The notes beneath the pieces are model-generated. The model saw nothing but the letters and a program-made list of their open reading frames with translations. It made no database searches and was not told where the DNA came from. A program made the translations under genes and the position numbers. From Pseudidiomarina sediminum DSM 21906 (lineage in GTDB: Bacteria; Pseudomonadota; Gammaproteobacteria; Enterobacterales; Alteromonadaceae): a stretch of DNA of 64,000 bases. Shown piece after piece: positions 1,301 through 19,604 of the stretch. The first letter of the stretch is position 1. The number at the start of each line of letters is the position of its first letter. The stretch spans positions 916,376 through 980,375 of the forward strand of contig NZ_KE383983.1 in NCBI RefSeq assembly GCF_000423165.1, written 5' to 3'.

Positions 1301-1333
1301 TAAGCAGTCTCTACGAATTATTGAATTCAGTAC

Positions 1334-1362
1334 TTGTAAGTTGGCGGCAGGTTATGTAATAT
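1334..1362 (+). promoter_or_regulatory. Candidate sigma-70 promoter before tpiA
   Basis: In the 106-base gap after glmM, TTGTAA (1334-1339) and TAATAT (1357-1362) stand 17 bases apart, about 45 bases before the tpiA ATG. This would let tpiA-secG be transcribed independently of glmM. Found by eye only. Confidence 0.4.
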
Positions 1363-1406
1363 CTCGCCGCTCTTGAGGTAGCAACTTCAAACCGAGAGGC
1401 TCTGTT

Positions 1407-2183
1407 ATGCAACCATCACCTTTAGTGATCGCAAACTGGAAAATGAATGGCAATCGCCAGCTTGTCCAGCAACTTGCAAAAGTGCTTCGTGAATCACAAG
1501 CCGACCTAACCGAGGTGGCTGTGGTGGTTTGCCCACCGGCGGTTTTATTACCGGCGTGGCAGCAGGAAGTGTTTTATGATGCTATTCATTTAGGTGCACA
1601 AGACTTAAATGAACATGCGTCAGGTGCACACACTGGTGAGCATAGCTTAGCGTTATTGCATGAAGCCGGTGCAGATTATGCCCTGATTGGCCACTCAGAA
1701 CGTCGTCAGTTTTATGGTGACAGTGGACAACGCGTGCAGGCGAAAGTCGACGCGGTATTAAGCTACCAAGAACATCTTTTTAAGCTGGTGCTTTGTGTTG
1801 GAGAGCATGAGCAAGAGCGTGACGCGGGGCGTACCATTGAAGTGGTCCAGCAGCAGCTCGAAGAAGCATTGCAAAACGTAAGTGCAGCGCAAATCGCGCA
1901 AGTGGTCGTCGCTTACGAACCGGTTTGGGCGATTGGTACTGGTAAAACAGCAACACCAGCCCAAGCACAAGAAGTGCATGCTTTTATCCGACAGTGGTTG
2001 GTTCAGCGCTTTGGCGCGGCAGCCCAACAAATACCATTACTGTACGGTGGTAGTGTGAAAGCGGATAACGCCGCTACACTGTTCGCCGAAGCAGATATAG
2101 ACGGCGGCTTGATTGGCGGCGCAAGCTTAGAAGCGCAAGCGTTTCTAGAGATTTGTCGCGCAGCACAAGCGCAAAGAGGCTAA
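1407..2183 (+). CDS. tpiA: Triosephosphate isomerase
   Basis: Interconverts dihydroxyacetone phosphate and glyceraldehyde-3-phosphate in glycolysis and gluconeogenesis. The 258-residue product has the whole TIM-barrel active site: Asn10 and Lys12 in ANWKMNG, electrophile His96 in GHSERR, catalytic base Glu171 in AYEPVWAIGTG, and the phosphate-binding YGGSV near the C-terminus. Length is normal for the family. The ATG follows a GAGAGG-like ribosome site. The stop lies two bases before secG, so the two genes are co-transcribed, an arrangement common in Vibrio- and Alteromonas-type genomes. Confidence 0.98.
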   Translation: MQPSPLVIANWKMNGNRQLVQQLAKVLRESQADLTEVAVVVCPPAVLLPAWQQEVFYDAIHLGAQDLNEHASGAHTGEHSLALLHEAGADYALIGHSERRQFYGDSGQRVQAKVDAVLSYQEHLFKLVLCVGEHEQERDAGRTIEVVQQQLEEALQNVSAAQIAQVVVAYEPVWAIGTGKTATPAQAQEVHAFIRQWLVQRFGAAAQQIPLLYGGSVKADNAATLFAEADIDGGLIGGASLEAQAFLEICRAAQAQRG

Positions 2184-2185
2184 CT

Positions 2186-2512
2186 ATGTACGAATTTTTA
2201 CTGATTGCGTATCTTATCGTTGCCATCGTGTTGATCGGGTTTATCATGATTCAACAGGGTAAAGGTGCCGATATGGGAGCATCATTCGGTGCTGGCGGGT
2301 CAAACACCGTATTTGGTTCAGGTGGTTCTGGTAACTTCCTTACCCGTACGACTGCCATCATTGCAATTATCTTTTTTGTGTTGAGTTTGATTTTAGGTAA
2401 CTTATCTTCAGGCGGCAGCGAAGTGAAAAGTGAGTTCGAAGTAATCGATGCTCCAGCGCCTGTAACTGAAGAAATTCCGGCACCACAAGGTGACGTGCCA
2501 GAGTCAAACTAA
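2186..2512 (+). CDS. secG: Preprotein translocase subunit SecG
   Basis: Small inner-membrane subunit of the SecYEG channel. The 108-residue product has two membrane segments (about residues 3-22 and 52-72) joined by the typical glycine-rich loop with QQGKGADMGASFG and GSGG, then a charged Pro/Glu-rich tail. I start at the ATG at 2186 (MYEFLLIAY), which matches the family; a longer reading from TTG 2153 runs back into tpiA and adds no family sequence. It is followed directly by a tRNA-Leu gene, as secG-leuU is in Escherichia coli. Confidence 0.95.
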   Translation: MYEFLLIAYLIVAIVLIGFIMIQQGKGADMGASFGAGGSNTVFGSGGSGNFLTRTTAIIAIIFFVLSLILGNLSSGGSEVKSEFEVIDAPAPVTEEIPAPQGDVPESN

Positions 2513-2525
2513 GCAAGTGTCTTTC

Positions 2526-2610
2526 GCGGATGTGGTGGAATTGGTAGACACGCTATCTTGAGGGGGTAGTGCCTTCGGGCGTGCGGGTTCAAGTCCCGCC
2601 ATCCGCACCA
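2526..2610 (+). tRNA. leuU: tRNA-Leu (anticodon GAG)
   Basis: An 85-base class II tRNA with a long variable arm. The acceptor stem GCGGATG pairs with CATCCGC, the anticodon stem CTATC/GGTAG closes a TTGAGGG loop giving GAG, the T-arm carries GGTTCAAGTCC, and CCA is encoded at 2608-2610. It lies 13 bases after secG and is probably cut from the secG transcript. Confidence 0.96.
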
Positions 2611-2615
2611 AATTT

Positions 2616-2640
2616 GCAACCGGTTAACGGTTGCGTTTCC
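2616..2640 (+). terminator. Weak terminator-like hairpin after tRNA-Leu
   Basis: The inverted repeat GCAACCG (2616-2622) / CGGTTGC (2628-2634) has a 5-base loop and is followed by GTTTCCTT. The tail is poor in T, so termination may be partial. The 3' arm overlaps the -35 box of the metY promoter. Confidence 0.4.
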
Positions 2641-2659
2641 TTCGGGAAATCCTTATAAT
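2631..2659 (+). promoter_or_regulatory. Sigma-70 promoter of the initiator tRNA / rimP operon
   Basis: TTGCGT (2631-2636), a 17-base spacer and a perfect TATAAT (2654-2659) lie 17 bases before the tRNA. This is the expected promoter for metY and, by read-through, for rimP-nusA-infB. Confidence 0.68.
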
Positions 2660-2676
2660 ACGGACACGTTTTCGGA

Positions 2677-2753
<77 letters not shown>

Positions 2754-2776
2754 TTTAACAAAGGGTCCAGTGTTCT

Positions 2777-2805
2777 AAAAGCCCCGCAGCAGTTCGGGGC
2801 TTTTT
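2777..2805 (+). terminator. Intrinsic terminator after metY
   Basis: AAAAGCCCCG (2777-2786) pairs with CGGGGCTTTTT (2795-2805) around an 8-base loop; GC-rich stem plus a run of five T. First of two terminators between metY and rimP. Confidence 0.85.
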
Positions 2806-2869
2806 ACTATGTGACCTCTGCTGCGGTAGTGAGTTAACACAACAACTCATCATTAGCAGTCATAACACT

Positions 2870-2890
2870 GGGCGTTTACGCCCTTTTTTT
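2870..2890 (+). terminator. Second terminator or attenuator before rimP
   Basis: GGGCG (2870-2874), loop TTTA, CGCCC (2879-2883), then seven T. It ends five bases before the rimP ribosome site, so rimP-nusA-infB must be read through it. In Escherichia coli, NusA controls its own operon partly by termination in this leader; the same role here is inferred. Confidence 0.75.
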
Positions 2891-2909
2891 GTTTCAGGAG
2901 TTCAAGAAT

Positions 2910-3368
2910 TTGGCACGTATTGAAGAACGTTTAGTGACGCTTCTCGAGCCGGCGGTATCGGCTTTAGGGTTTGAGCTATGGGGCGTTGAGTTTGTTCGCG
3001 CAGGTAAGCATTCGACCTTGCGCGTGTATATTGATCACGCCAATGGTATCAGCGTCGATGATTGTGCTGACGTGAGCCATCAAGTAAGTGCATTGTTAGA
3101 TGTTGAAGATCCAATCAACACTGAGTACTACTTGGAAGTCTCTTCCCCAGGAATGGAACGTCCGTTTTTCAGCGCGGCGCAAATGCAAGATTACCTGGGC
3201 GAAACTGCGGCGGTTGAATTAACCGTGGCGCAGCAAAATAAACGTAAATTTAAAGGTGTTATCAAGGCAGTTGATGGCACTCAAGTCGAATTTGAAGTAG
3301 ATGGCGAGCCAATGAAGGTCAGCTATTCTGCCGTCAAAAAAGCTCATTTAGTCCCTCAGTTTAACTAA
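2910..3368 (+). CDS. rimP: Ribosome maturation factor RimP
   Basis: Assists assembly of the 30S ribosomal subunit in the cytoplasm. The 152-residue product has the N-terminal alpha/beta domain (ALGFELWGVEF, then LRVYIDH) with the family signature SSPGMERPF, and a C-terminal SH3-like barrel ending in SAVKKAHLVP. I choose the TTG at 2910 because CAGGAG (2895-2900) is correctly spaced from it and homologues begin at this point. An in-frame TTG at 2889 sits inside the terminator T-run, upstream of that ribosome site, and is unlikely. First gene of the nusA operon. Confidence 0.93.
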   Translation: MARIEERLVTLLEPAVSALGFELWGVEFVRAGKHSTLRVYIDHANGISVDDCADVSHQVSALLDVEDPINTEYYLEVSSPGMERPFFSAAQMQDYLGETAAVELTVAQQNKRKFKGVIKAVDGTQVEFEVDGEPMKVSYSAVKKAHLVPQFN

Positions 3369-3392
3369 GGATTGCGCAGGCGAGGCAAGATA

Positions 3393-4892
3393 ATGGCAAA
3401 AGAAATTTTATTAGTAGCAGAAGCTGTTTCGAACGAAAAAGACGTGTCGAAAGACAAAATTTTTGAAGCTCTCGAGTCTGCGTTGGCGCACGCGACGAAG
3501 AAGAAGTACGAAGGTGACATCGACGTACGTGTCAGTATTGACCGTACCACCGGTGACTTCGATACCTTCCGTCGTTGGCTCGTGGTTGATGATAGTGAGC
3601 AACCGCTTGAGCATCCTTATCGTGAAATCAGCTTAGCAGCGGCTCAGTATGAAGACGAGAGCATGCAAGCAGGCGACTACGTTGAAGAACAAATTGAGTC
3701 GATTGAATTTGACCGTATTACGACGCAAACCGCGAAACAGGTGATCGTACAGAAAGTACGTGAAGCTGAACGTGCGAAAGTGGTCGACGAATATAAAGAT
3801 CAAGTCGGTGAGTTGATTAGCGGTACGGTAAAACGTGCGAACCGTGAGCACGTGTTATTGGATTTAGGCAACAACGCCGAAGCGATGATTTATCGTGAAG
3901 AAATGTTGCCACGTGAATCTGTTCGTGTCGGCGACCGCGTGCGTGGTCTTCTGTATGACGTACGTCCAGAAGCGCGTGGTGCACAGTTATTTATGAGCCG
4001 CACCAATCCTGACTTTTTGATTGAGTTGTTCCGCATCGAAGTGCCAGAGATTGGCGAAGAGATGATCGAAATTCGTGGCGCAGCACGCGACCCTGGTTCA
4101 CGCGCTAAAATCGCAGTGAAGAGTAACGATCGTCGTATCGACCCAGTTGGTGCGTGTGTGGGTATGCGTGGCGCACGTGTGCAAGCCGTTTCAGGTGAGC
4201 TTGGTGGCGAACGTGTGGATATCGTCTTGTGGGATGATAACCCAGCCCAGTTTGTCATCAACGCGATGGCTCCTGCTGAAGTTGCCTCAATCGTTGTTGA
4301 CGAAGACGCGCATACCATGGACATCGCTGTGGAAGAGGGCAACCTCGCTCAGGCAATTGGTAAAGCTGGCCAAAACGTGCGTTTGGCGAGTCAATTGACC
4401 GGTTGGCAGTTGAATGTCATGTCGGTCGATGAGTTCAACGAGAAGAACGAAGCAGAATCACAGCGTTTGTTGGACTTGTTTACCAAACACTTGGATATCG
4501 ACGCCGACTTTGCTGGCGTGTTGGTTGACGAAGGCTTCTCAACCTTGGAAGAAATCGCGTACGTACCTATGGATGAACTCCTTGCTATCGAAGGTATGGA
4601 CGAAGACATCGTTGAAGAGTTGCGCAATCGTGCACGTGCGGTACTAACAACCAAAGCGTTGGCCGATGAGGAATCATTGGAAAGTGCAGAGCCAGACGAA
4701 ACCTTATTAGGCCTTGAAGGCTTGGATCGTCATTTGGCGTATGTATTGGCGAGCAAAGGCATTGTGACCTTGGAAGACTTAGCCGAGCAAGGTGTTGATG
4801 ACCTTGCTGAAATCGAAGAATTAAGTGAGCAACGAGCAGGCGAATTGATTATGCAAGCGCGTAATATTTGCTGGTTCGGTGGTGAAGAATAA
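3393..4892 (+). CDS. nusA: Transcription elongation and antitermination factor NusA
   Basis: Binds RNA polymerase and nascent RNA and modulates pausing, termination and antitermination. The 499-residue product has the N-terminal polymerase-binding domain ([16 protein letters not shown]), an S1 domain near residue 135 ([10 protein letters not shown]), two KH domains ([12 protein letters not shown] and [13 protein letters not shown]) and two C-terminal acidic repeats ending in ARNICWFG. Both repeats are present, as in enteric NusA. The ATG at 3393 is the family start; an upstream in-frame TTG at 3372 adds only seven unlikely residues. Lies 24 bases after rimP and 23 before infB. Confidence 0.98.
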
Positions 4893-4915
4893 GATCAACG
4901 GGGGTACGACAGACT

Positions 4916-7588
4916 ATGGAAGAAGTAACGCTGGATAAACTAGCTAATGATGTAGGTACGACAGTTGATCGTTTGGTGACGCAATTTGCCGAGGCTGGCA
5001 TGAAGAAGTCAGCTGGCGATACCGTTACCGAAGACGAAAAACAAGCACTGCTTGCTCACTTAAATAAGCAGCACGGCGGTAAAGGTCCGCAAGAGCCAAG
5101 CAAGATGACCTTACAACGGAAAGAAAAAAGTACGTTGAGCATCGGTGGTGGCAGTGCTGGTCGTAACAAATCTGTGCAAGTTGAAGTACGTAAAAAGCGT
5201 ACGTATGTGAAACGTTCTGCCCTTGAAGAGCAGCAAAAAGCTGAGCAAGAAAAAGCGGAGCAAGAACGTTTAGCAGCAGAAGCCAAACGTCAGGAAGAAG
5301 AGGCGAAAGCAGCGGCGGAAGCCAAAGCGAAGGCTGAACAAAAAGCTGCTGAAGAAAAAGCGCAACAAGAAGCTGCACGCAAAGAAAAAGAGAAAGCGAA
5401 GGCGAAAGCTGACGCTGAAAAGCGTGCCGCGATGACGCCTGAAGAGCGTCAGAAAGCTGATGAAGCTAAAGCGGAAGCGGATCGTCTGCGTAAAGCGCAA
5501 GAAGAAGAAGCGCGTAAAAAAGCAGAAGAAGAAGCAGCTCGCCAAGCTGAAGAAGCGCGTCGCTTAGCAGAAGAAAACGAAGCGCGTTGGCAAGAAGAAG
5601 AAGCCAAGCGCAAAGAAGCCGAAAAAGAAGATGTACACTTCACCACCTCGCAATACGCGCAGCAAGCTGAAGACGAGCAAGACGTTGATGAAGAACGTCG
5701 TAACCGTCGTAAGCAGAAGCGTCGCAGTAAAGATGACGAGCGTGATGAAACACCACGTCGTGAGAAGCGTCGTAAGGGCTCGAAGCGTTCAACGCTCCAA
5801 CAAGCCTTTACCAAGCCAGCATCTCCGGTTGAACGTGAAATCAAAATCGGCGAAACCATTACTGTTGGTGAACTTGCCAACCGCATGGCGGTGAAAGCAA
5901 GTGAAGTGATCAAAACCATGATGAAAATGGGCGAGATGGTCACCATCAACCAAGTACTTGACCAAGAAACCGCGTCACTCGTGGTTGAAGAGATGGGTCA
6001 CAAGTGCGTATTGGTTAGCGACAACGCACTTGAGCAAGAAGTTTTAGCGGAACGTAACGAAGGTGAAGCCTTGGCGAAAGAGCCGCGTGCGCCAGTCGTT
6101 ACAGTGATGGGTCACGTTGACCACGGTAAAACGTCATTGTTGGATTACATCCGTAAAGCTAAGGTTGCTTCTGGCGAGGCCGGTGGTATTACCCAGCACA
6201 TTGGTGCATACCACGTTGAAACTGGTCACGGCATGATTACCTTCTTGGATACTCCAGGTCACGCAGCCTTTACCTCAATGCGTGCACGTGGTGCCGGTGC
6301 GACAGATATCGTTATCTTGGTGGTTGCTTCGGATGATGGCGTCATGCCACAAACCATCGAAGCCATCCAGCACGCGAAAGCTGCGGGTGTACCTATTGTG
6401 GTTGCGATCAACAAAATGGATAAGCCGGAAGCGGATCCTGATCGCGTGAAGAACGAGTTGGCGCAACGTGACGTTATCCCTGAAGATTGGGGCGGCGATG
6501 TACAGTTTGTGCCAGTATCTGCGCACACAGGTCAAGGTATTGATTCATTACTTGAAGCCGTACTGCTGCAAGCTGAGGTTCTCGATTTACAAGCTGTTGC
6601 CGCGGGTATGGCCCACGGTATCGTGATTGAGTCACGCTTGGACAAAGGCCGTGGTCCTGTCGCATCGATTTTGGTGCAAGAAGGTACCTTACGTCAGGGC
6701 GACATCGTTTTGTGTGGTCTTGAATATGGCCGTATTCGTGCCATGCGTGACGAGTTAGGCCGCGACGTGAAAGAAGCTGGCCCATCGATTCCGGTGGAGA
6801 TTCTAGGCCTTTCAGGTGTGCCGCAAGCTGGTGATGAAGCGACTGTTGTAAAAGACGAGCGTAAAGCGCGTGAAGTTGCTAACTACCGTCAAGGTAAATA
6901 CCGCGAAGTGAAACTTGCGAAGCAGCAGAAAGCGAAGCTGGAAAACATGTTTGCCAACATGCAAGAAGGCGACGTAAAAGAACTTAACATCGTTCTGAAA
7001 TCAGACGTTCAAGGTTCTTTGGAAGCGATTGCGGAGTCGTTGATGAAGTTGTCAACCGACGAAGTGAAAGTCAACATTATTGGTAGCGGTGTCGGTGGTA
7101 TCACCGAGACAGACGCCTCGTTGGCGAATGCTTCAAATGCGATCGTGGTTGGCTTTAACGTTCGAGCGGATGCTTCAGCGAAGAAAGTCATTGAACAAGA
7201 AAGCGTTGATTTACGTTACTACAGCGTTATCTATGATTTGATTGATGAAGTTAAACAGGCGATGGGCGGTATGCTTGCACCTGAATTCAAGCAGCAAATC
7301 ATTGGCTTGGCTGAAGTACGTGACGTATTTAAATCACCGAAACTTGGTGCCATCGCGGGTTGTATGGTCACCGAAGGTGTGGTGAAGCGTTCTGCACCAA
7401 TTCGTGTACTACGTGACAACGTAGTGATTTACGAAGGTGAACTTGAGTCATTGCGTCGCTTCAAAGACGATGTACAAGAAGTTCGCAACGGTATGGAATG
7501 TGGTATCGGCGTGAAAAACTACAACGACGTGCGTGTGGGTGACCAAATTGAGGTCTTCGAAACCGTACAAGTTGAGCGGAGTCTATAA
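4916..7588 (+). CDS. infB: Translation initiation factor IF-2
   Basis: GTPase that delivers initiator tRNA to the 30S subunit and promotes subunit joining. The 890-residue product has the IF2 N-terminal fold (about 1-55), a long highly charged Ala/Glu/Lys/Arg helix (about 95-290), a second IF2-N domain (about 310-360), then the G domain with GHVDHGKT (399-406), DTPGHA and NKMDKP, and C-terminal domains II-IV. The charged stretch gives low-complexity DNA at about 5220-5770. Family length is normal. ATG with upstream GGGGTAC. In operon between nusA and rbfA. Confidence 0.98.
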
Positions 7589-7593
7589 GGTTT

Positions 7594-7995
7594 ATGGCAA
7601 AAGATTACAGCCGTACCGATCGTGTAGGACAACAGTATCAGCGTGAAATCGCGCTGATACTGCAACGCGAAATCAAAGACCCTCGGGTCTCAATGGTGAC
7701 TGTTTCTGCCGTTGAAGTGTCGCGCGACTTGGCCTACGCCAAAGTTTTCGTGACCTTTTTGCAAGATGACGCAGAGCAGCGTAAGCAAGGCTTAAAAGTC
7801 TTGAACGACGCCGCGGGATTTATTCGCTCGTTATTGGGAAAACGTGTGCGTGCACGCATTATGCCTGAACTGCGTTTTGTCCATGACGGCTCGTTGAATG
7901 AAGGTATTCGCATGTCACGTCTGGTCGACGAAGCTATTGCGAAAGACCAACAACGTTCTAGCCAACACGATAAGGACGAGCAGGGAGACGATTAA
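7594..7995 (+). CDS. rbfA: Ribosome-binding factor A
   Basis: Small KH-fold protein (133 residues) that binds the 30S subunit and is needed for 16S 5'-end processing and cold adaptation. Family signatures are visible: an N-terminal [14 protein letters not shown] helix, [18 protein letters not shown], and the RMPELRF-like strand ([11 protein letters not shown]) followed by the LVDEA helix. It starts five bases after infB and its stop TAA overlaps the truB ATG by one base, so translation of truB is probably coupled to it. Confidence 0.97.
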
Positions 7996-8936
7996 TGGGA
8001 CGACGTAAATCGGGCCGCGATATTAGCGGTGTGATTGTCTTAGATAAGCCTCTCGAGTTAACCTCAAACGCCGCACTGCAAAAGGTGCGGCGTTTTTTTA
8101 ATGCTCGAAAAGGTGGTCATACTGGCGCACTTGATCCGCTCGCAACAGGTGTTTTACCCCTCTGTTTTGGCGAAGCTACCAAACTTTCACACTTTGCTTT
8201 AGAGGCCGATAAAACCTATCAGGTGACGGCGCAATTGGGGGTTCGGACGACCACCAGTGATGCAGAAGGCGAGGTGGTGGCCACCGCCGATGTGGCATTG
8301 ACGCCAGCGAAAATCGACGCAGCGATTGCCGCTTTTACAGGTGCGCAAGAGCAGTCACCGTCAATGTATTCAGCGCTGAAATATGAAGGTCGACCGTTGT
8401 ACTACTATGCGCGACAAGGCATAGAGGTTCCGCGTAAGTCACGTACCATCACGATTCACTCGATTGTTTTGCTTGGGTTTACAGAGACCACCCTAACGCT
8501 TGAAGTCACCTGCAGTAAAGGCACCTATATTCGTACGTTGATTGACGATATGGGCCAATATTTAGGCTGTGGTGCACACGTAGCAGCGTTGCGTCGTACC
8601 TGGATCGAAGGTGTTGAAGGTGACATGGTGACGCTGGACGAACTCGCTACTTTAGCTGAACAATGTGATCCGGAACAGGATGACTATGCGGCACTGGATG
8701 CGTTGTTGTTACCTTGTGATGCGGTGATCCGGCAAATTCCAGAGGTCGAAATCGCAGCGGCGGATGCGGCCCGCTTTAGTGCCGGTAACCCAGCACGTGT
8801 GGTGGTTGGTGACGCGCGGCCTGAAACTGAAGTGGTACGGGTACGTGCAGCAGGCGAATCGATACTGCTGGGGCTTGGCTATTGGCGCGATGATAAAATT
8901 ATGCCAAAGCGTGTCCTTTGCGTTGCTAATCGCTAG
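7995..8936 (+). CDS. truB: tRNA pseudouridine(55) synthase TruB
   Basis: Makes pseudouridine 55 in the T-loop of tRNAs and acts as a tRNA chaperone. The 313-residue protein has the catalytic motif GGHTGALDPLATG with the active Asp near residue 48, the SKGTYIRTL motif, and a C-terminal PUA-like region. It overlaps rbfA by one base. The codons for residues 25-34 contain a perfect terminator-like hairpin (8068-8099), listed separately. The rpsO promoter overlaps the last codons. Confidence 0.97.
   Translation: MGRRKSGRDISGVIVLDKPLELTSNAALQKVRRFFNARKGGHTGALDPLATGVLPLCFGEATKLSHFALEADKTYQVTAQLGVRTTTSDAEGEVVATADVALTPAKIDAAIAAFTGAQEQSPSMYSALKYEGRPLYYYARQGIEVPRKSRTITIHSIVLLGFTETTLTLEVTCSKGTYIRTLIDDMGQYLGCGAHVAALRRTWIEGVEGDMVTLDELATLAEQCDPEQDDYAALDALLLPCDAVIRQIPEVEIAAADAARFSAGNPARVVVGDARPETEVVRVRAAGESILLGLGYWRDDKIMPKRVLCVANR
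8068..8099 (+). terminator. Perfect intrinsic-terminator-like hairpin inside truB
   Basis: ACGCCGCAC (8068-8076) pairs over 9 of 9 bases with GTGCGGCGT (8085-8093) around an 8-base loop, followed at once by an unbroken run of seven T (8093-8099). This is a textbook terminator shape, 73 bases into the truB coding region, encoding ordinary TruB residues (NAALQKVRRFF). Whether it terminates depends on ribosomes: translating ribosomes would melt it, while untranslated RNA could terminate. Confidence 0.6.
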
Positions 8937-8951
8937 GTGAATCCGTATAAT
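8923..8951 (+). promoter_or_regulatory. Sigma-70 promoter of rpsO-pnp
   Basis: TTGCTA (8923-8928), 17-base spacer and a perfect TATAAT (8946-8951) overlap the end of truB. It corresponds in place to the rpsO P1 promoter of Escherichia coli. Confidence 0.7.
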
Positions 8952-8964
8952 ACGGGGCGATCTC

Positions 8965-8994
8965 ATCGGTGCTGAATTAGTGATCGGCACTGAT
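8965..8994 (+). promoter_or_regulatory. Hairpin in the rpsO leader, possible S15 feedback element
   Basis: ATCGGTGC (8965-8972) pairs with GCACTGAT (8987-8994), eight pairs with one G-T, around a 14-base loop and just before the ribosome site. S15 represses its own mRNA through leader structure in several bacteria; whether this hairpin does so is inference. Confidence 0.4.
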
Positions 8995-9018
8995 ATTTTT
9001 CACAATTAGGAGTATGTT

Positions 9019-9288
9019 ATGTCACTAACTGCGGCACAAAAAGCTGAAATCGTTAAAGAATACGGCCAAGGCGAAAACGACACTGGTTCTCCAGAAGTTC
9101 AAGTAGCTTTGTTAACTGCGAACATTAACGAACTGCAAAGCCACTTTAAAGAACACGCTAAAGATCACCACTCACGTCGTGGTCTGTTGCGCATGGTTAG
9201 CCAACGTCGTAAATTGTTGGACTACCTAAAGCGTAAAAATCAGCAGCGTTATGCTAGCTTGATTGAGCGACTAGGTTTGCGTCGCTAA
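9019..9288 (+). CDS. rpsO: 30S ribosomal protein S15
   Basis: Primary binder of the central domain of 16S rRNA and part of an intersubunit bridge. The 89-residue product is full length, with signatures [15 protein letters not shown], the helix-loop with [10 protein letters not shown], and the C-terminal [16 protein letters not shown] preceded by AGGAGT. It has its own promoter overlapping truB, a structured leader and a terminator before pnp, the same layout as Escherichia coli. Confidence 0.99.
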
Positions 9289-9300
9289 GCACTGTTCGAA

Positions 9301-9325
9301 AAAGGGGCCGACTGGCCCCTTTTTT
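9301..9325 (+). terminator. Intrinsic terminator between rpsO and pnp
   Basis: AAAGGGGCC (9301-9309), 4-base loop, GGCCCCTTT (9314-9322), continuing as a run of six T (9320-9325). Some read-through is expected because pnp lies downstream with no obvious promoter of its own. Confidence 0.87.
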
Positions 9326-9336
9326 ACTTGTAAATC

Positions 9337-9400
9337 GCTATTGGCTATTCGTTCTGCGCTATTAAAGCGAATTGATAACGCACAACAAATAGCAAATAGC
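9337..9400 (+). promoter_or_regulatory. Long imperfect hairpin in the pnp leader, likely RNase III site
   Basis: Bases 9337-9362 pair with 9375-9400 in one continuous stem: 22 of 26 positions pair, with four symmetric single mismatches (9343, 9350, 9354, 9359) and a 12-base loop. No T-run follows, so it is not a terminator. In Escherichia coli, RNase III cuts such a stem in the pnp leader and PNPase then destabilises its own mRNA. The place and shape here match that mechanism. Confidence 0.72.
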
Positions 9401-9438
9401 ATGTTGAATTTAAAAGAAGAAAGTGAAGGAAAATAAAC

Positions 9439-11580
9439 GTGAATCCAATTACTAAACAGTTTGAATACGGTCGCCATACCGTGACATTGGAAACGGGCGC
9501 GATGGCCCGTCAGGCATCTGGCGCAGTATTAGCAAGTATGGATGATACGGCAGTTTTGGTAACTGTCGTGGCAAAAAAAGAAGCAAAAGAAGGTCAAGAT
9601 TTCTTCCCGCTTACCGTGAACTATCAAGAGCGTACCTACGCAGCTGGTAAAATCCCTGGTGGCTTTTTCAAACGTGAAGGTCGTCCATCTGAGAACGAAA
9701 CCTTAACCTCACGTTTGATCGACCGTCCGATCCGCCCACTGTTCCCAGAAGGCTTCAAAAACGAAGTCCAAGTGATCGCGACCGTGGTTTCTGTGAACCC
9801 ACAAGTAAACCCTGACATCGTTGCTTTGATTGGTGCTTCTGCTGCACTGACCATCGCTGGTGTGCCGTTTGCAGGCCCGATTGGTGCTGCACGTGTTGGT
9901 GTGATCAACGATGAATACGTGTTGAACCCGACCACTGACGAATTGGCTGAATCAAAGCTTGATTTGGTGGTTGCAGGTACTGATAAAGCGGTATTGATGG
10001 TTGAATCTGAAGCGCAATTGCTGTCTGAAGATGCCATGTTAGGTGCGGTAGTTTACGGTCATGAGCAAATGCAAACTGTGATCGAAAACATCAATGCCTT
10101 CGCTGCTGAAGCAGGCAAGCCGAAGTGGGACTGGCAAGCGCCAGAGAAAAATGTTGCGCTGAAAGACCAAATTAAAGCACTTGCTGAAGCAGGTCTTGGC
10201 GATGCGTACCGTATTACTGAAAAAACTGCGCGTTATGAGCAAGTTGGCAAATTGCGTGATGAAGTCATCACTAAGCTGACCGCTGAAAACGAAGAACTTG
10301 ATGCCAAAGAAATTGGCGACCTGTTCCACGAGCTAGAGAGTGACATCGTACGTAGCCGCATTATTGCTGGTGAGAAGCGTATTGATGGTCGTGACCCAGA
10401 TATGGTGCGCCCATTGCACATCGCTACCGGTTTGTTGCCACGTGTTCACGGTTCAGCCGTCTTCACCCGTGGTGAAACACAGGCATTGGTTGCCGCGACA
10501 CTAGGTACAGAACGTGACGCGCAAATGATTGATGACCTGATCGGTTCAAGTAATAACCGCTTCATGTTGCACTATAACTTCCCTCCATACTGTGTGGGTG
10601 AAACCGGTATGGTTGGCTCACCGAAGCGTCGTGAAATCGGTCACGGTCGTTTGGCGAAGCGTGGTGTTCAAGCTGTTATGCCAAGCCAAGAAGAATTCCC
10701 GTACACCGTACGTGTGGTTTCTGAAATCACTGAATCAAACGGCTCAAGCTCAATGGCATCTGTATGTGGTACGTCACTCGCATTGATGGACGCTGGTGTG
10801 CCAATTAAAGCTTCGGTTGCGGGTATCGCAATGGGTCTCGTTAAAGAAGGCGACAACTATGTTGTACTTTCGGACATCCTTGGTGATGAAGATCACTTAG
10901 GTGACATGGACTTTAAAGTTGCGGGTAGCAAAGATGGCGTTACCGCGCTACAGATGGATATCAAGATTGACGGTATCACCCGTGAAATCATGGAAGCTGC
11001 ACTTGAGCAAGCGAAAGCTGCCCGTTTGCATATCTTAACCGTGATGGACGAAGCGATTTCTGGCGCGCGTCAAGAGCTGTCTGACTTCGCACCTCGTTAC
11101 CACACCATGAAGATCAACCCGGACAAGATCCGTGACGTGATCGGTAAAGGTGGTGCGGTAATTCGTGAGTTGACGGAAAGCACCAACACCAATATCGAAA
11201 TCAACGACGATGGTACGGTACGTATCGCTGCAACTGACCAAGCGTCAGCTGAAGCTGCAATTAGCCGTATTGAAGAGTTGACTGCTGATGTTGAAGTTGG
11301 CCGTATCTACCAAGGTAAAGTTGCACGTATCGTTGACTTCGGTGCGTTCGTAACAATCCTACCAGGCAAAGATGGTTTGGTTCACATTTCACAAATCGCT
11401 GAAGAGCGTGTGAACGACGTGAATGAGTACTTGAAAGTTGGCGATAGTGTGCCGGTGAAAGTACTTGAAATCGACCGTCAAGGCCGTGTGCGCTTGAGCA
11501 TGAAAGAAGCTGCTGAGAAGCCAGCTGAAACTGAACAAGCCGCTGACACTGCGACAGAAGAGCAAAGCGACGCTGAATAA
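9439..11580 (+). CDS. pnp: Polyribonucleotide nucleotidyltransferase (PNPase)
   Basis: Phosphorolytic 3'-5' exoribonuclease, a trimer and degradosome component in many proteobacteria. The 713-residue product has two RNase PH-like domains ([12 protein letters not shown] in the first; [12 protein letters not shown] and [12 protein letters not shown] in the second), an all-alpha linker, a KH domain ([16 protein letters not shown], about residues 560-590) and an S1 domain ([18 protein letters not shown]) with an acidic tail. The GTG start at 9439 follows AAGGAAAATAAAC. The long leader hairpin suggests self-control through RNase III. Confidence 0.98.
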
Positions 11581-11612
11581 GCGCCGACGCGAATCTTTAC
11601 AATTTTGTTTGC

Positions 11613-11640
11613 AAAGGGGCTTCGGCCCCTTTTCTTTTTT
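11613..11640 (+). terminator. Intrinsic terminator after pnp
   Basis: AAAGGGGC (11613-11620), TTCG tetraloop, GCCCCTTT (11625-11632), then CTTTTTT. Strong end of the rpsO-pnp transcript; nlpI begins 52 bases later. Confidence 0.88.
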
Positions 11641-11691
11641 GTCGTAAGGTGCGCTATGATGGAAGCCACAAGAACGCGTTAAGGAAGTGGT

Positions 11692-12585
11692 ATGAATCTT
11701 CGTCAAGTGGCGACGCTCCTCTCTAGTGGTGCGCTACTGCTCGGCTGTAGCACTACGCCAGGTGCGAATGAGCCAGTGTTAAATAATTTGGTGGTGGCTA
11801 CCCCACAAGTGGCCGACAGTCGGTTTCAACTTGAGCTGGCCAAACTGAATGAAATCCTCGCCAACGATCGCGACCAATTGAATGCCGAAGCGATGGGGCA
11901 AATTCTCTATCGTCGCGGTAGTTTACATGACGCTTTAGGGCTCGACGTATTGGCGCGTATCGACTTCAATCACGCTTTGGATTATCAACCGCGACTGGCC
12001 GATGCCTACAACTATTTAGGCATTCATTACACGCAAGCAGGTCAGTACGATTATGCCTATGAAGTGCTAGATGCTGCGTTAGAGCTTGAGCCGGGCCATC
12101 CATACGCCCATCTTAATCGAGGTGTGGCAGCCTATTATGATCAGCGCTTTGACCTCGCGCTTGATGATTTAGAGATCTTTTACCAGAACGACCCCAATGA
12201 TCCTTATCGGGCCATTTGGCGCTATTTGGTTCAGGTTGAGGTAAACCCGAAGCAGGCCAAACAAGCCTTGGCGACGGCACGTTTAACACAGCAAAGTGAT
12301 GCGTGGGCGTGGGGCATCGCCGATCTTTATGTTGGTGCCATGACCGAGCAGGAATTTCTAAGCAATTACGCGACGGCGGCCTTGGCTGAAGATGAAACGC
12401 TGGCTGAACGTATGTGTGAAGCCTATTTTTATTTGGGCAAGGCGAAGCAGCTGAAGGGCGAGTGGGAGTCTGCAGCGGTTTATTTTAGACTCGCAATGGC
12501 CACCAATGTGCATTTGTTTTTGGAGCATCGCTATGCCGGGTTTGAAATGGATTGGAGCCAGCAGCAAGCGAATCAGCAAAACTAG
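11692..12585 (+). CDS. nlpI: TPR lipoprotein NlpI
   Basis: Outer-membrane lipoprotein; in Escherichia coli it is an adaptor for murein hydrolases and for the Prc protease. The 297-residue product has a lipoprotein signal with lipobox LLGC (Cys19), then tetratricopeptide repeats (for example ADAYNYLGIHYTQAGQYDYA and HPYAHLNRGVAAYYDQRFD, about residues 60-165) and a C-terminal helical region. The position directly after pnp is conserved. Its last 53 bases overlap the start of the next gene in another frame. Confidence 0.93.
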   Translation: MNLRQVATLLSSGALLLGCSTTPGANEPVLNNLVVATPQVADSRFQLELAKLNEILANDRDQLNAEAMGQILYRRGSLHDALGLDVLARIDFNHALDYQPRLADAYNYLGIHYTQAGQYDYAYEVLDAALELEPGHPYAHLNRGVAAYYDQRFDLALDDLEIFYQNDPNDPYRAIWRYLVQVEVNPKQAKQALATARLTQQSDAWAWGIADLYVGAMTEQEFLSNYATAALAEDETLAERMCEAYFYLGKAKQLKGEWESAAVYFRLAMATNVHLFLEHRYAGFEMDWSQQQANQQN

Positions 12586-13417
12586 CGGCTGTGCCGCTCT
12601 GTTCAGCATTGCACTGTTGCAACCTGCACAGGCTGAGTTGCCTTGGTTCGCACCAAGGGGACAGGTCAGTACGTGCAGCAACGACGCAGCTGTACAGGTG
12701 TGGCTACCGCAGCAGCTGCCACAGCGCGCACAAGTGCTGGAGGTGTTAAGCAAGTGGCAAGCACACCCGCTGCACGCCTATGTTCCCTGTTTTTCACTGC
12801 GTTATTACCATGATGCCACCGCGTTGGCCTGCACTACGCAAGGAGAACGTGGTCGTCAGCGTTGCCAGCCGCCGGTGTTGCCGCGAGAACTGCATCAGCG
12901 TCAGCTAATTTTTACCGACGCGTTGATTGGCAGTGCGTCGGCGCAGCAAATTGTCCTGCCTACCGCAACGTCTGTTGCAGCATTTGCCCATGAAGTGGGG
13001 CATTGGTTAGGATTTGCGGATGAATATCGGATGAGTGCTGAGCTGGCGCAACCCTTTTGTCACGGACGTTATCGGCACCCGTCGTTAAACGTGGTGACGA
13101 CCGCTGTGTTGGAAATGAGCAGCGCCGAGTTACAAGCACTTTGGCAGCGCTTGCCTTGGCGGGACCAAGTGAGCGATTGGCAACTTCTGGGGCAAAGCAT
13201 TGGTGCTGAGCGGTGGCGCTTAGGCTCAACAGAGGCGACAGCGGTTGGCTTATTTGCGAGTCGTACCTGTGATGAGGTGCCAGGACGCTACAGTTGGAAG
13301 CCTGTAGCGCGTATGACAGCGATGGAATACCATGACGTCACTATCTGGCCGAAAGCCTACCTGAAGCTATTAGAGAACGCTGGCGGTTTGCGCAATCATA
13401 ATGATCGGGCAAAGTAG
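12533..13417 (+). CDS. Predicted secreted metzincin-like zinc metalloprotease
   Basis: Not a family I can name. The product from ATG 12533 (294 residues) begins with a basic segment, a hydrophobic core and AQA before ELPWF, a type I signal peptide, so it should be periplasmic or secreted. Residues 153-165 read HEVGHWLGFADEY, the HExxHxxGxxD zinc motif of metzincins with Asp as third ligand, and MTAMEY at 261-266 could be the Met-turn beneath the site. Six cysteines lie in the mature part, suggesting disulfides. The DEY ending resembles peptidase family M64 and related sequences. The gene overlaps nlpI by 53 bases and the convergent MAPEG gene by 48. A start at 12506 is possible but loses the clean signal peptide. 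Confidence 0.7.
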   Translation: MPGLKWIGASSKRISKTSGCAALFSIALLQPAQAELPWFAPRGQVSTCSNDAAVQVWLPQQLPQRAQVLEVLSKWQAHPLHAYVPCFSLRYYHDATALACTTQGERGRQRCQPPVLPRELHQRQLIFTDALIGSASAQQIVLPTATSVAAFAHEVGHWLGFADEYRMSAELAQPFCHGRYRHPSLNVVTTAVLEMSSAELQALWQRLPWRDQVSDWQLLGQSIGAERWRLGSTEATAVGLFASRTCDEVPGRYSWKPVARMTAMEYHDVTIWPKAYLKLLENAGGLRNHNDRAK

Positions 13418-13762
13418 CGCGAGAAACCAAATCAGGCTACGCAATTTGTCCCAATTCAGTAAGTACAAGGTATGGAAGACGATTCGTAGCCCAATGAAAC
13501 TTACCGCAAGCCACTGATTTAGGAGCGTTACTTGCTCCGTTGCAATGACGACTAATACTGCTGCTGCAAATAACGGAAAAGCTTCATAGGCATTGTAATG
13601 ACCGGCAACGGCACGGGCGCCGGCACCGGTAAGGCGTTGCTGCTGAGCGCGCGGATGACGGTTATCGTAACCGTTATCACGATTTTGGAAATAAACGACG
13701 GGCGCTTTTGCCGCAATGGGCAACAGGCCTGCAATTAATAAACACCAAATCAATAGACTCAT
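13370..13762 (-). CDS. MAPEG family membrane protein
   Basis: The 130-residue product has four hydrophobic segments and family features: an N-terminal membrane helix, a loop with RDNGYDNRHPRAQ, the GAGARAVAGHYNAYEAFPLFAAAVL helix and a C-terminal LRSLIWFLALLCP. MAPEG proteins include glutathione transferases and peroxidases, but bacterial members like this one have no assigned substrate. ATG at 13762 has AAGGAG six bases upstream; an in-frame TTG two codons earlier is less likely. It follows lipA by 17 bases on the same strand and overlaps the convergent metalloprotease gene. Confidence 0.85.
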   Translation of the reverse strand: MSLLIWCLLIAGLLPIAAKAPVVYFQNRDNGYDNRHPRAQQQRLTGAGARAVAGHYNAYEAFPLFAAAVLVVIATEQVTLLNQWLAVSFIGLRIVFHTLYLLNWDKLRSLIWFLALLCPIIMIAQTASVL

Positions 13763-13779
13763 CAGCAACTCCTTGTCGA

Positions 13780-14745
13780 TTACTTAACTTCTTTACCTGC
13801 CGCTTGTAAGTCAGCGTGGTATGAAGAACGTACCAAAGGACCACTGGCGATGTGGGTAAAGCCCATCTTTTCGCCCTCAATGCGGAACATTTCAAACTCA
13901 TCCGGGGTGACATAACGGGTGACCGGCAAGTGGTGGCGACTTGGCTGTAAGTATTGACCAATGGTCAGCATATCCACGTTGTGGGCGCGCAGGTCACGCA
14001 TCACTTCAAGGATTTCGTCATTTTCTTCACCGAGACCAACCATGAGGCCTGATTTCGTCCGCACATCTGGACGTTCTTCTTTATAGCGTTTAAGCAGATC
14101 AAGCGACCACTGGTAGTTAGCGCCTGGGCGTGCGGCCTTATACATGCGCGGCACAGTTTCCAAGTTATGGTTAAACACGTCCGGTGCTTCATCCGTTAGG
14201 ATGTCCAGTGCGACCTCCATCCGGCCACGGAAATCAGGAACCAAGACTTCAACTTGGATGCCAGGGCTCTGCGCACGGATTTCACGAATACAATCGGCAA
14301 AATGCTGAGCACCGCCGTCACGCAAGTCGTCACGGTCTACCGAGGTTACCACCACGTACTTCACTTTCATGTCACGAATCGTGGCGCCAAGTTTTACCGC
14401 TTCTTCCGGGTCTGGCGCCAGTGGGCGGCCATGAGCAACGTCACAGAACGGACAACGACGGGTACAAATGGCCCCAAGGATCATGAAGGTTGCGGTACCG
14501 TGATTGAAGCACTCAGCCAGGTTTGGACAAGAGGCTTCTTCACAGACCGAGTGCAAACCGTGCTTGCGCATGGCTTGTTTAATTTCATCAATCCGCTGGG
14601 TCGAAGAGGGGAGTTTGACCTTCAACCATTCGGGTTTACGTAACATTTGTTCGCGTTCGGTCGGCACGATTTTGACCGGAATGAGTGCCATTTTATCGGC
14701 GTCGCGTAATTTAACACCGGGTTCAATTTTAACTGGCTTGGACAT
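13780..14745 (-). CDS. lipA: Lipoyl synthase
   Basis: Radical SAM enzyme that inserts two sulfurs into octanoyl groups on lipoyl domains. The 321-residue protein has the auxiliary iron-sulfur cluster cysteines Cys68, Cys73 and Cys79 ([12 protein letters not shown]) and the radical SAM triad Cys94, Cys98 and Cys101 (CTRRCPFC). The C-terminal SYHAD with its cluster-ligand serine is also present. The ATG at 14745 ([10 protein letters not shown]) fits the family; the open frame continues upstream into lipB only as overlap. Its start overlaps lipB by 17 bases, so the two are translated together. Confidence 0.98.
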
Positions 14746-15394
14746 AAGTCGTGTCAAATCCTGTGTGTTCGTGAATGTCTTGGTAACCCAATCGCTCTGC
14801 AAAAATAGCGGTAACACGTTGCGCCGCCTCTGCGACTGAGGGAGGGCCACCTAAATCGGTCGTTTGGATCATTTGCATACCGGCGTAACCACAAGGGTTA
14901 ATCCGCAGGAAAGGCTCCAGATCCATCGCAACATTAAGCGCGAGGCCATGGAACGAGCAACCACGGCGAATGCGTAATCCTAAGGAGCATAGTTTCGCGC
15001 CATCAATGTAAACACCGGGCGCATCTGGACGCGCCGCAGCACTGACACCATACTCAGCCATGAGGCTGACAATAGTGTCTTCAATGGTATTGACGAGTTG
15101 ACGCACGCCAAGCTTGTGTCGGCGGAGGTCGAGCAAGAAGTAGACCACCAATTGGCCTGGCCCGTGATAGGTGACTTGACCACCACGGTCGACTTTCACA
15201 ATGGGAATATCGCCTGGGGCAAGAATATGCTCAGCTTTACCCGCCTGGCCTTGCGTAAATACCGGATCGTGTTCAAGTACCCACAGCTCATCGGCGGTGT
15301 TGGCATCACGCGTATCGGTAAATTGTTGCATGGCTTGCCAGACAGGCTCGTACGCCTGTCGGCCTAATTGACGCACAATTAATTTAGAGGACAT
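14729..15394 (-). CDS. lipB: Octanoyl-[ACP]:protein N-octanoyltransferase
   Basis: Moves octanoyl groups from acyl carrier protein to apo lipoyl domains, the substrate for LipA. The 221-residue product carries [13 protein letters not shown], the catalytic Lys134 in [10 protein letters not shown] and the catalytic Cys168 in INPCGY. It overlaps both neighbours: 17 bases with lipA downstream and 11 bases with the DUF493 gene upstream, so the three form one translational block. Confidence 0.98.
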
Positions 15395-15650
15395 AACGGA
15401 CGTCTTCGAGATCAGCTAACGCGCGGTAAAGGGTTTCAATATGCTGTTGACTCTCCACTCGGATTTGAATCGAAACCGAATGATAGGTGCCTTTACTGCT
15501 TGGCTTGACTGACGGGCTATAATCGCCCGGCGCGTGCGCTTGAGCGACCGCGACGACCGCGTCTGGAAGTTCTGGCTTAGCCACGCCCATCACCTTGAAG
15601 GTGAAGTGACAAGGAAATTCGACCAGTTCATCAAAACGGGTTTTTTGCAT
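15384..15650 (-). CDS. ybeD: DUF493 family protein YbeD
   Basis: An 88-residue ACT-like alpha/beta protein of unknown biochemical role that is conserved before lipB in gammaproteobacteria. Visible family features are the N-terminal [17 protein letters not shown] and the middle [18 protein letters not shown]. Its end overlaps lipB by 11 bases. The context suggests a link to lipoate metabolism, but no function is shown. Confidence 0.92.
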
Positions 15651-15659
15651 GTTTAACTC

Positions 15660-16508
15660 CTAAGCAATATGCTCGCGTTTACTAGCGTGGAAGGCGTCAA
15701 TCAATTGTTGTGTGACCTTACCACAGCGACCATCGGCCACTATTATATCATCAATTTGACCGATCGGTTGCACTTCGCGACTCGAGCTAGTTAAGAACAG
15801 CTCGTCCAGTTCGCCAAGTTCGGCGACATGGAAGGGCTGCTCGTTGACTTTGAGGCCCAGTCGTTGTGCGAGCTCAATCACCCACATGCGGGTGATCCCT
15901 GCCAAAATCAAGTGGTCTGCTGGCGCTGTGTAGATTTCACCTTGTTTTACGGCGAAATAATTACTCGACGCGCCTTCGGTAATGCGCCCATCGCGATGTA
16001 ACAGAGGCTCGATAGCACCACGACGCTGAGCTTCTTGCTTGAGGAGTTGGTTGCCGAGCAGGCTGACGCTCTTAATGTCACAGCGGAGCCAACGAATATC
16101 GTCACAAAGCGTCACTTTAGCCGGTGCTGGCGTATCCCAGTGCAACTGCATTGGCGTGAAGGTGGCGAAGATGGTTGGTGTCATTGGACCTTGTGGCAGG
16201 TGATTGCGCTTGCTTTCGGCACCACGGGTGACCTGAAAATAAACTAAGCCACTTTCAATGCTTGGGTTGTTGGCGATGAGGTCATCGACTAAGGCCAACC
16301 AAAATGCTTGGCCGGGCGCTTCGATGCCGATCGCTTCAAGGGAGCGCGTGAGTCGCGCAAGATGATGCTCGGCGAGAAACGGCCGACGGTGGTAAACAGG
16401 AACAACTTCATAAATGCCTTCCGCAAACAAAAAGCCTCGGTCAAAGACCGAGACTTTAGCAGCTTCAGGGGCGATCCAGTCGCCATTTAAATAGACTAAA
16501 CCGCTCAT
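15660..16508 (-). CDS. dat: D-amino acid aminotransferase (class IV PLP enzyme)
   Basis: Fold type IV PLP aminotransferase, 282 residues. It has YLNGDW, the FDRGFLFAEGIYEVVPVY segment, the PLP-binding Lys146 in DIKSVSLLGN, and TEGASSNYFAV. Together these match D-alanine/D-glutamate transaminases rather than IlvE or PabC. It lies nine bases before ybeD and 13 bases after dacA. Since dacA trims D-Ala from peptidoglycan stem peptides, a role in recycling or supplying D-amino acids is plausible, but this is inference from context. Confidence 0.88.
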   Translation of the reverse strand: MSGLVYLNGDWIAPEAAKVSVFDRGFLFAEGIYEVVPVYHRRPFLAEHHLARLTRSLEAIGIEAPGQAFWLALVDDLIANNPSIESGLVYFQVTRGAESKRNHLPQGPMTPTIFATFTPMQLHWDTPAPAKVTLCDDIRWLRCDIKSVSLLGNQLLKQEAQRRGAIEPLLHRDGRITEGASSNYFAVKQGEIYTAPADHLILAGITRMWVIELAQRLGLKVNEQPFHVAELGELDELFLTSSSREVQPIGQIDDIIVADGRCGKVTQQLIDAFHASKREHIA

Positions 16509-16521
16509 GGCTTACCCTCTA

Positions 16522-17688: not shown

Positions 17689-17767
17689 GGTTGATTGTCT
17701 CTACGTTTTCTACATTTAAATTCAAGCGGACTGAAATGGTAGCATAGCTCTTTCACAATGGCAGCGT

Positions 17768-19575: not shown

Positions 19576-19604
19576 AACGCACTATCCTTTTTTGCGATTG
19601 CGCC

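Follow-up and report, generated by a model that had tools for sequence, protein, structure and literature searches.

A terminator-like hairpin conserved at synonymous sites in the start of truB in Pseudidiomarina, and similar elements in other closely packed genes

Terminators within operons and coding regions

Internal partial terminators set the stoichiometry of ABC importer operons in cellulolytic Clostridia, where, as far as the accessible part of that account goes, a partial intrinsic terminator stands between abundant upstream genes and less needed downstream genes (PMC9045158). In Escherichia coli, the terminator t3 of the nusA-infB operon has been placed upstream of rbfA in the portion of the report available (PMC6511841), and a conserved attenuator-like element preceding rbfA in Enterobacteria was assigned to BIME repeats, according to a likewise partial source (PMC2965389). 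Earlier computer predictions had already produced many putative terminators in coding regions (cited in PMC4824070). Natural intrinsic-type 3' ends inside open reading frames (ORFs), e.g., aceK int, have been reported in E. coli and Zymomonas, with a class of 'terminators within genes' in the latter; the accessible portions of these reports do not present such ends as a class that is conserved in the starts of packed downstream genes (PMC7815308, PMC7566282). In the open-access literature, as far as its text was accessible, no description was found of terminators kept at synonymous sites in the starts of packed downstream genes.

The most direct information on how position affects termination next to translated sequence comes from constructs in which lambda tR2 was engineered in E. 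coli (Li et al., PMC4824070). In the available text, a terminator was silenced when placed close behind a stop codon and regained full strength beyond ~27–30 nt, translation cost only ~10% of termination when the terminator lay 30 bp into the next ORF, and the leading ribosome was argued to need ~100–200 nt to catch RNA polymerase. The terminator that this study placed within 100 bp of an ORF start, which met little interference from translation, occupied nearly the position of the element described below; the latter differs in being natural and kept at synonymous sites by an entire genus. The Pseudidiomarina elements also differ from those of the clostridial operons, which are intergenic in the part of that report consulted, by lying within the coding sequence of the downstream gene (PMC9045158).

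The hairpin inside truB and its conservation

The window analyzed here is a 64,000-nt stretch of the genome of Pseudidiomarina sediminum DSM 21906. It carries, in order, tRNA-Met (2677–2753), the rimP leader (2744–2890; Rfam RF01770), rimP, nusA, infB, rbfA (7594..7995, plus strand; Pfam PF02033), truB (7995..8936, plus strand; Pfam PF01509, PF16198, and PF09157), rpsO, and pnp. The names rbfA and truB were confirmed by Pfam, while rimP, nusA, infB, rpsO, and pnp were recognized by eye. The rimP leader contains a hairpin with seven T residues at 2870–2890, directly 5' of rimP. Only 5 nt separate infB from rbfA (7589..7593, plus strand), and the ATG of truB, which encodes tRNA pseudouridine-55 synthase, shares one base with the rbfA stop codon at 7995. 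The spacing of rbfA and truB is −1 to +1 nt, i.e., the genes overlap or abut, in all 26 Pseudidiomarina genomes. Downstream of truB, the S15 (rpsO) leader (8964..9075, plus strand; Rfam RF00114) is preceded immediately by a promoter-like site (8923–8951), and the sequence GTATAAT is found 5' of rpsO in all 26 genomes. The rpsO-pnp genes are thus probably started independently from their own promoter. Since rpsO has this promoter-like site and the S15 leader, any effect of an element in truB on rpsO-pnp should be limited, contrary to the lowered read-through into rpsO-pnp proposed in the first-pass annotation.

The segment at 8066–8099, which begins 71 nt past the truB ATG, reads AAACGCCGCACT-GCAAAA-GGTGCGGCGTTT followed by TTTT. 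Its 5' arm, AAACGCCGCACT (8066..8077, plus strand), spans truB codons 24–28 and is defined by sequence, fold, and codon constraint. The loop, GCAAAA (8078..8083, plus strand), covers codons 28–30, which are free to vary between species, and the 3' arm, GGTGCGGCGTTT (8084..8095, plus strand), consists of codons 31–34, GTG CGG CGT TTT, identical in 26 of 26 genomes. The U tract of seven T (8093..8099, plus strand) has seven T in 24 of the 26 species and six in the other two. Counting the outer A-U pairs and one U·G pair, the stem has 12 bp around a 6-base loop. The first-pass annotation had described a sense-direction, terminator-like element hidden in truB, with nine pairs, an 8-base loop, and T7, 73 nt past the ATG. 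That description is correct for the inner part of the structure, in which 8068–8076 pair with 8085–8093, the ninth pair uses the first T, and 8068 is counted from the ATG at 7995; fold, stem, and T7 bear out its terminator-like character.

The predicted fold of a 61-nt segment containing the hairpin has a free energy of −29.4 kcal/mol (z −7.9), and none of 200 shuffles was equally good. Among the 29 terminator-like sites in positions 1–16000 of the window, the truB hairpin has the most pairs (12) and the most G-C pairs (7), and by strength it ranks second among 53 sense hairpins with U tracts found inside ORFs in 1.655 Mb of the same genome, in a mechanical ORF set. Its value of −20.3 kcal/mol may be compared with the intergenic elements of this genome, of which 79 out of 210 reach −16 kcal/mol. 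On these features the truB element has the predicted hallmark of an intrinsic (Rho-independent) terminator, namely a G+C-rich hairpin adjoining a U run of ~7–9 nt. A covariance-model scan of window positions 1–20000 (E up to 1) placed no Rfam family at 8066–8099; its five matches were the S15 leader, the rimP leader, two tRNAs, and one sub-threshold mir-154. The palindrome has one perfect copy in the 2.62-Mb genome. A dispersed palindromic repeat, DNA uptake sequence, or mobile hairpin was rejected, as allowing up to two mismatches yields 15 places, the same number as for a reversed control.

Conservation of the element within the genus is complete, being present in 26 of 26 Pseudidiomarina genomes. 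All of them read AA(C/T) GC(C/T) GC(A/C/G/T) on the 5' side of the loop and GTG CGG CGT TTT TT(T/C/A) on the 3' side, with loop codons that vary in both spelling (CTT, CTG, CTC, CTA, TTG; CAA, CAG) and residue (Q, K, or T). Codons 31, 32, 33, and 34 underwent zero synonymous changes by parsimony, against means for columns of the same residue of 8.5 (V), 7.0 (R), 7.0 (R), and 5.3 (F); codons 25 and 26 underwent one change each, against means of 3.8 and 10.0. When columns were shuffled among same-residue positions, none of 20,000 permutations gave a window this low in synonymous change. The parsimony count covers the 3' part of infB, rbfA, and truB, rpsO being excluded from the means and the permutation for its low diversity throughout. 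Among 114 fully conserved degenerate columns of truB, only five use one codon throughout the 26 genomes, codon 13 and codons 31–34, in a gene whose synonymous codons differ between pairs of species by a median of 0.56. CGG accounts for 13% of the Arg codons in the analyzed genes.

The pairing itself is similarly maintained. Stem cells are paired in 98.3% of cases, compared with 37–68% for slid partners, and the U tract has 6–7 T in all 26 species. No double compensatory change was found at any stem pair; the changes are one-sided and mostly yield G·U pairs, the A-U pair near the loop is broken in 4 of 24 distinct rows, and the outermost pair in one. Random synonymous recodings of codons 23–38 that preserved the protein and codon usage matched the native stem in 32 of 66,000 trials, scored in the 22 species with an uninterrupted stem, the remaining four having one interior mismatch. 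The first-pass annotation had named as one of its two refuting results a lack of pairing conservation beyond that forced by the protein; the comparison gave the opposite result, with the stem kept in 26 of 26 genomes and codons 31–34 devoid of synonymous change. Judged from these codon patterns, the truB hairpin is not an accident of protein sequence, and stem and U tract both appear to be under selection.

Relatives, the infB-rbfA gap, and other packed genes

Outside the genus, presence of the element was scored as a stem of at least 7 bp with at most one mismatch, at least six T in eight positions, and −12 kcal/mol or stronger. It was found in none of 32 other relatives, 20 further family loci, 29 class samples, 30 order samples, or the single E. 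coli locus; the outgroup total is 112 loci, and the class and order samples comprise 59 besides the own genome, some repeating genomes already read. Of 13 further loci, three score positive; all are from Providencia, and their stem is 7 bp long and set in a different register. In 11 Providencia genomes (L063–L072 and L076), truB codons 26–33 form eight consecutive single-codon columns, a run matched in 1 of 20,000 permutations, and encode the hairpin GCGCTGC/GCGGCGC, while the T run is variable, the FF codons using TTT and TTC freely. As Providencia mixes TTT and TTC within the same VRRFFNA peptide, the FF codon choice in Pseudidiomarina is not dictated by the protein. The Providencia hairpin was considered as an instance of the same element and is treated instead as a parallel, being shorter, in another register, free in TTT/TTC usage, and accompanied by an infB-rbfA hairpin. 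Constraint on its stem without a U tract makes an additional role of the stem possible.

The infB-rbfA gap distinguishes Pseudidiomarina from most of its relatives. Within the genus it measures −1 to 6 nt and contains a hairpin in 0 of 26 genomes, as opposed to the other relatives, where it has a median of 92 nt and carries a hairpin in 59 of 63, with a U-rich tail in 54 (63 of the 65 other relatives were analyzed, L050 and L090 being left out). Providencia has a hairpin in this gap in 11 of 11 genomes, with a U-rich tail in five, and in the 163-nt gap of E. coli the scan finds a hairpin and T run, AAAAAGGGGCTAACAGCCCCTTTTT (1 of 1). The resemblance to t3 lies in the operon and in the proposed job, an internal stop that separates nusA-infB from the distal genes. 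The differences are that t3 is intergenic and precedes rbfA, whereas the truB hairpin follows rbfA, lies in frame, has another sequence, and occupies constrained codons. The truB element is therefore not t3, although it may work like t3. In the most similar other genus (g52), six of seven genomes lack the infB-rbfA hairpin and no replacement hairpin is visible in truB; a terminator at this operon position is thus not obligatory. In one genome of another genus (L161, genus g35), terminator-like hairpins occupy both the infB-rbfA gap and a 59-nt gap between rbfA and truB, the second hairpin being AACGCCGG..CCGGCGTT TTT.

The same arrangement recurs elsewhere in the genome, which, like the lost intergenic hairpin, was not anticipated by the first-pass annotation. 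The scan of 1.655 Mb of the own genome, with 1416 mechanical ORFs, counted 53, 23, 13, and 10 sense hairpins with U tracts inside ORFs at thresholds of −9, −12, −14, and −16 kcal/mol, and 38, 14, 13, and 10 antisense ones. Strong elements (−14 and −16) are equally numerous in the two orientations, and position alone differs. Nine of the ten strongest sense elements (−16 or stronger) lie within the first 130 nt of their ORF, a region that accounts for 12% of coding length, compared with two of ten antisense elements. Two of the sense elements, C1:1136460 (before uppS) and C1:1217056, were rejected as in-ORF cases, the ORF starts being over-extended and the hairpins really intergenic; after their removal, seven of eight sense elements remain in the first 130 nt. 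In these seven, the upstream gene is −1 to 19 nt away and the hairpin starts ~20–125 nt into the ORF.

Besides truB behind rbfA (8066–8099, plus strand), the elements include one in a class-IV aminotransferase gene, dat (15660..16508, minus strand; Pfam PF01063), which lies 13 nt behind dacA (16522–17688, named by eye) and has its hairpin 51 nt past the start, at codons 18–26 (16431..16457, minus strand). Another lies 122 nt into a patatin-like gene (C1:1198134–1198159; ORF 18012–19055 of L328) that begins 19 nt behind recA, and is perhaps the recA terminator. Strong hairpins that start 20–28 nt into the ORF occur in three more genes: an alpha/beta hydrolase gene that follows an slp-like lipoprotein gene (C1:1014517–1014543), an apbE-like gene that follows nqrF (C1:813246–813268), and a pepN-like gene (C1:1303199–1303223). 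One further candidate lies in a mechanical ORF on C2 (C2:41838). Gene names were assigned by eye from translations, apart from the Pfam-checked aminotransferase, and the exact start codons are uncertain.

Five in-ORF hairpins chosen by the analyst were followed through the genus: truB, dat, patatin-like, murE-like, and msrB. The element is kept in 20 of 22 orthologs of dat (four genomes of the genus having only weak, paralog-level matches) and in 21 of 24 orthologs of the patatin-like gene, in both cases with a U-rich tail. In 22 orthologs of each gene, the segment with the least synonymous change coincides with the hairpin, an outcome reached in 1 of 10,000 permutations for dat and 0 of 10,000 for the patatin-like gene, the latter test using 22 of 24 loci, without the partial genes L374 and L375. 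The two controls behaved differently: the msrB hairpin is kept in 1 of 25 orthologs, and for the murE-like gene, where the hairpin lies 84 nt from the ORF start, 3 of 25 orthologs have one, once at another place (counted without the fragments L307 and L308). A 400-kb segment of a second species (G022) contains 12 in-ORF sense elements, 10 of which have an ortholog in the covered part of the own genome. The four conserved ones are the four strongest (−21.1, −20.0, −19.6, and −15.2 kcal/mol); none of the six weaker ones is conserved. In the reverse comparison, 16 own elements have an ortholog in the G022 segment. Five of these are conserved, including one over-extended start; the other eleven are not, and the strongest of them (−15.9 and −14.4 kcal/mol) are both distant from the ORF start. 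The alpha/beta hydrolase element, also present in G022, was compared in these two genomes only.

From this recurrence, it is an even question whether Pseudidiomarina has systematically moved the terminators of upstream genes into the first 20–125 nt of the next ORF, the coding region in which ribosomes would silence them least, wherever genes are packed without a spacer, so that the RNA signal would fix codons of the downstream gene (in truB, perhaps residues A26, R32, F34, and F35). The upstream genes that would count as cases under that proposal, with the same balance of belief for and against, are rbfA/infB, dacA, recA, the slp-like lipoprotein gene, nqrF, and the gene before pepN.

Proposed termination and alternative roles of the truB element

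The reading favored here, with modest confidence, is that the truB element acts as a working intrinsic terminator that supplies a main 3' end of the rimP-nusA-infB-rbfA message and permits partial read-through into truB. The 3' end would lie at about 8097–8101, and only a fraction of RNA polymerases would continue into truB, lowering the truB dose. The terminator would sit in the start of truB because the spacer that carries the equivalent hairpin (t3) in relatives is gone. A ribosome finishing rbfA would be unable to cover the hairpin, which starts 71 nt past the rbfA stop, more than the 27–30 nt required, and polymerase would reach the hairpin at about the time when, or before, a ribosome starting on truB catches up. 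With no spacer left between the genes, the start of the next ORF best meets both of these positional conditions. The U tract of truB, 98–104 nt past the ATG, falls at the edge of the stretch tested in the accessible part of Li et al. (PMC4824070), and the patatin-like element, beyond 120 nt, falls at or past it. The truB element should thus often terminate during normal translation, which favors dosage control over an alarm function. Its purpose would be to hold the level of truB, like that of other second genes, under the level of the upstream genes, a differing need for TruB and IF2 being assumed. What is observed directly is the hairpin with its synonymous-site conservation, an infB-rbfA gap that contains no hairpin, and a layout that recurs in other packed gene pairs; stopping of RNA polymerase at the element, the fraction stopped, and the dosage purpose are inferred. 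Counting against the terminator reading is that terminated messages would contain the truB start but no stop codon, which would burden ribosome rescue.

In-ORF hairpins are readily dismissed as false terminator predictions. The clear case of truB and the parallel cases in the same genome suggest that a conserved terminator can be housed within the first ~125 nt of a downstream ORF, a location that one synthetic study made plausible, and they provide a testable statement on where transcription-translation coupling begins in real operons. If termination does occur there, the codons of housekeeping enzymes, and perhaps their amino acids, have been shaped by dosage control of upstream neighbors, and cells routinely produce short mRNA ends that have a start codon and lack a stop.

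A conditional translation sensor, as had been proposed in the first-pass annotation on the basis of truB-rbfA coupling, is the strongest rival, although a doubtful one. Ribosomes passing from rbfA to truB would keep the hairpin open, and faltering truB initiation or early elongation would allow it to fold and stop transcription. The coupled arrangement on which the proposal was built stands, given the overlap or abutment of the genes in every genome of the genus. Ribosomes are able to suppress intrinsic terminators (PMC5021804, in the portion available), translational surveillance has been raised as a possible role of coding-region terminators (Li et al., PMC4824070, likewise in part), and the truB U tract, ~100 nt in, lies at a distance at which the leading ribosome may be starting to catch up. 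A polarity sensor built on that coupling is nevertheless not specifically supported. It would need a sharp rise in termination when truB translation is blocked, and the published precedent, in which translation removed only ~10% of the efficiency of a terminator set 30 bp into an ORF (PMC4824070, available text), makes such a rise less likely. Moreover, the untranslated intergenic hairpin that most relatives have in this operon cannot sense truB translation, and other embedded elements lie behind genes up to 19 nt away.

A structured mRNA element that has no part in termination, and that protects a 3' end, serves as an RNase site, or slows early truB translation, is improbable. The 7-bp Providencia hairpin, at the same truB site, with its fixed stem codons and variable U tract, is what such an element might look like. 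The U tract in Pseudidiomarina, however, immediately follows the stem and is under similar constraint, and the retention of U-rich tails by the dat and patatin-like elements speaks against this explanation as well.

A trp-like attenuator would have codons 6–8, 11–13, 25–27, and 31–34 as four segments pairing 1:2, 2:3 (antiterminator), and 3:4 (terminator), with ribosome position deciding among them. Such a three-way switch gained no clear support when tested, and it is considered very improbable. In its favor, a GCGG(C/T)GT-like word occurs at codons 11–13 in many species as well as at 31–34, codon 13 is GTG without exception (26 of 26), and the 1:2 pairing surpasses synonymous recodings (p ≤ 0.05) in 22 of 26 species (mean p 0.05), with p ≤ 0.05 in 11 of 62 outgroup loci (mean p 0.35). 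The 2:3 pairing on which switching depends is not reliably above recodings, with a mean p of 0.21 and pairing weaker than the random mean in L021, L022, and L025, and it does not form when folding is predicted for the initial 87 nt of the own gene; unlike leader peptides, the arrangement also has no leader stop codon to halt a ribosome. That the hairpin is a functionless by-product of protein sequence and codon usage is scarcely credible and largely refuted by the codon data, for although it can be encoded within the TruB motif N-A-A-L-Q-x-V-R-R-F-F and a hairpin of −10 kcal/mol or better with a T-rich tail arises in 1.7% of recodings (1304 of 78,000), four consecutive codons show no synonymous change across 26 species whose median synonymous difference is 0.56.

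A second, weaker hairpin is formed by truB codons 4–16 (8004..8042, plus strand) and in 22 of 26 species is stronger than synonymous recodings. Its sequence could form an alternative pairing with the 5' arm of the terminator-like hairpin, a pairing that is not reliably conserved, and in some species it is followed by a U-rich tail.
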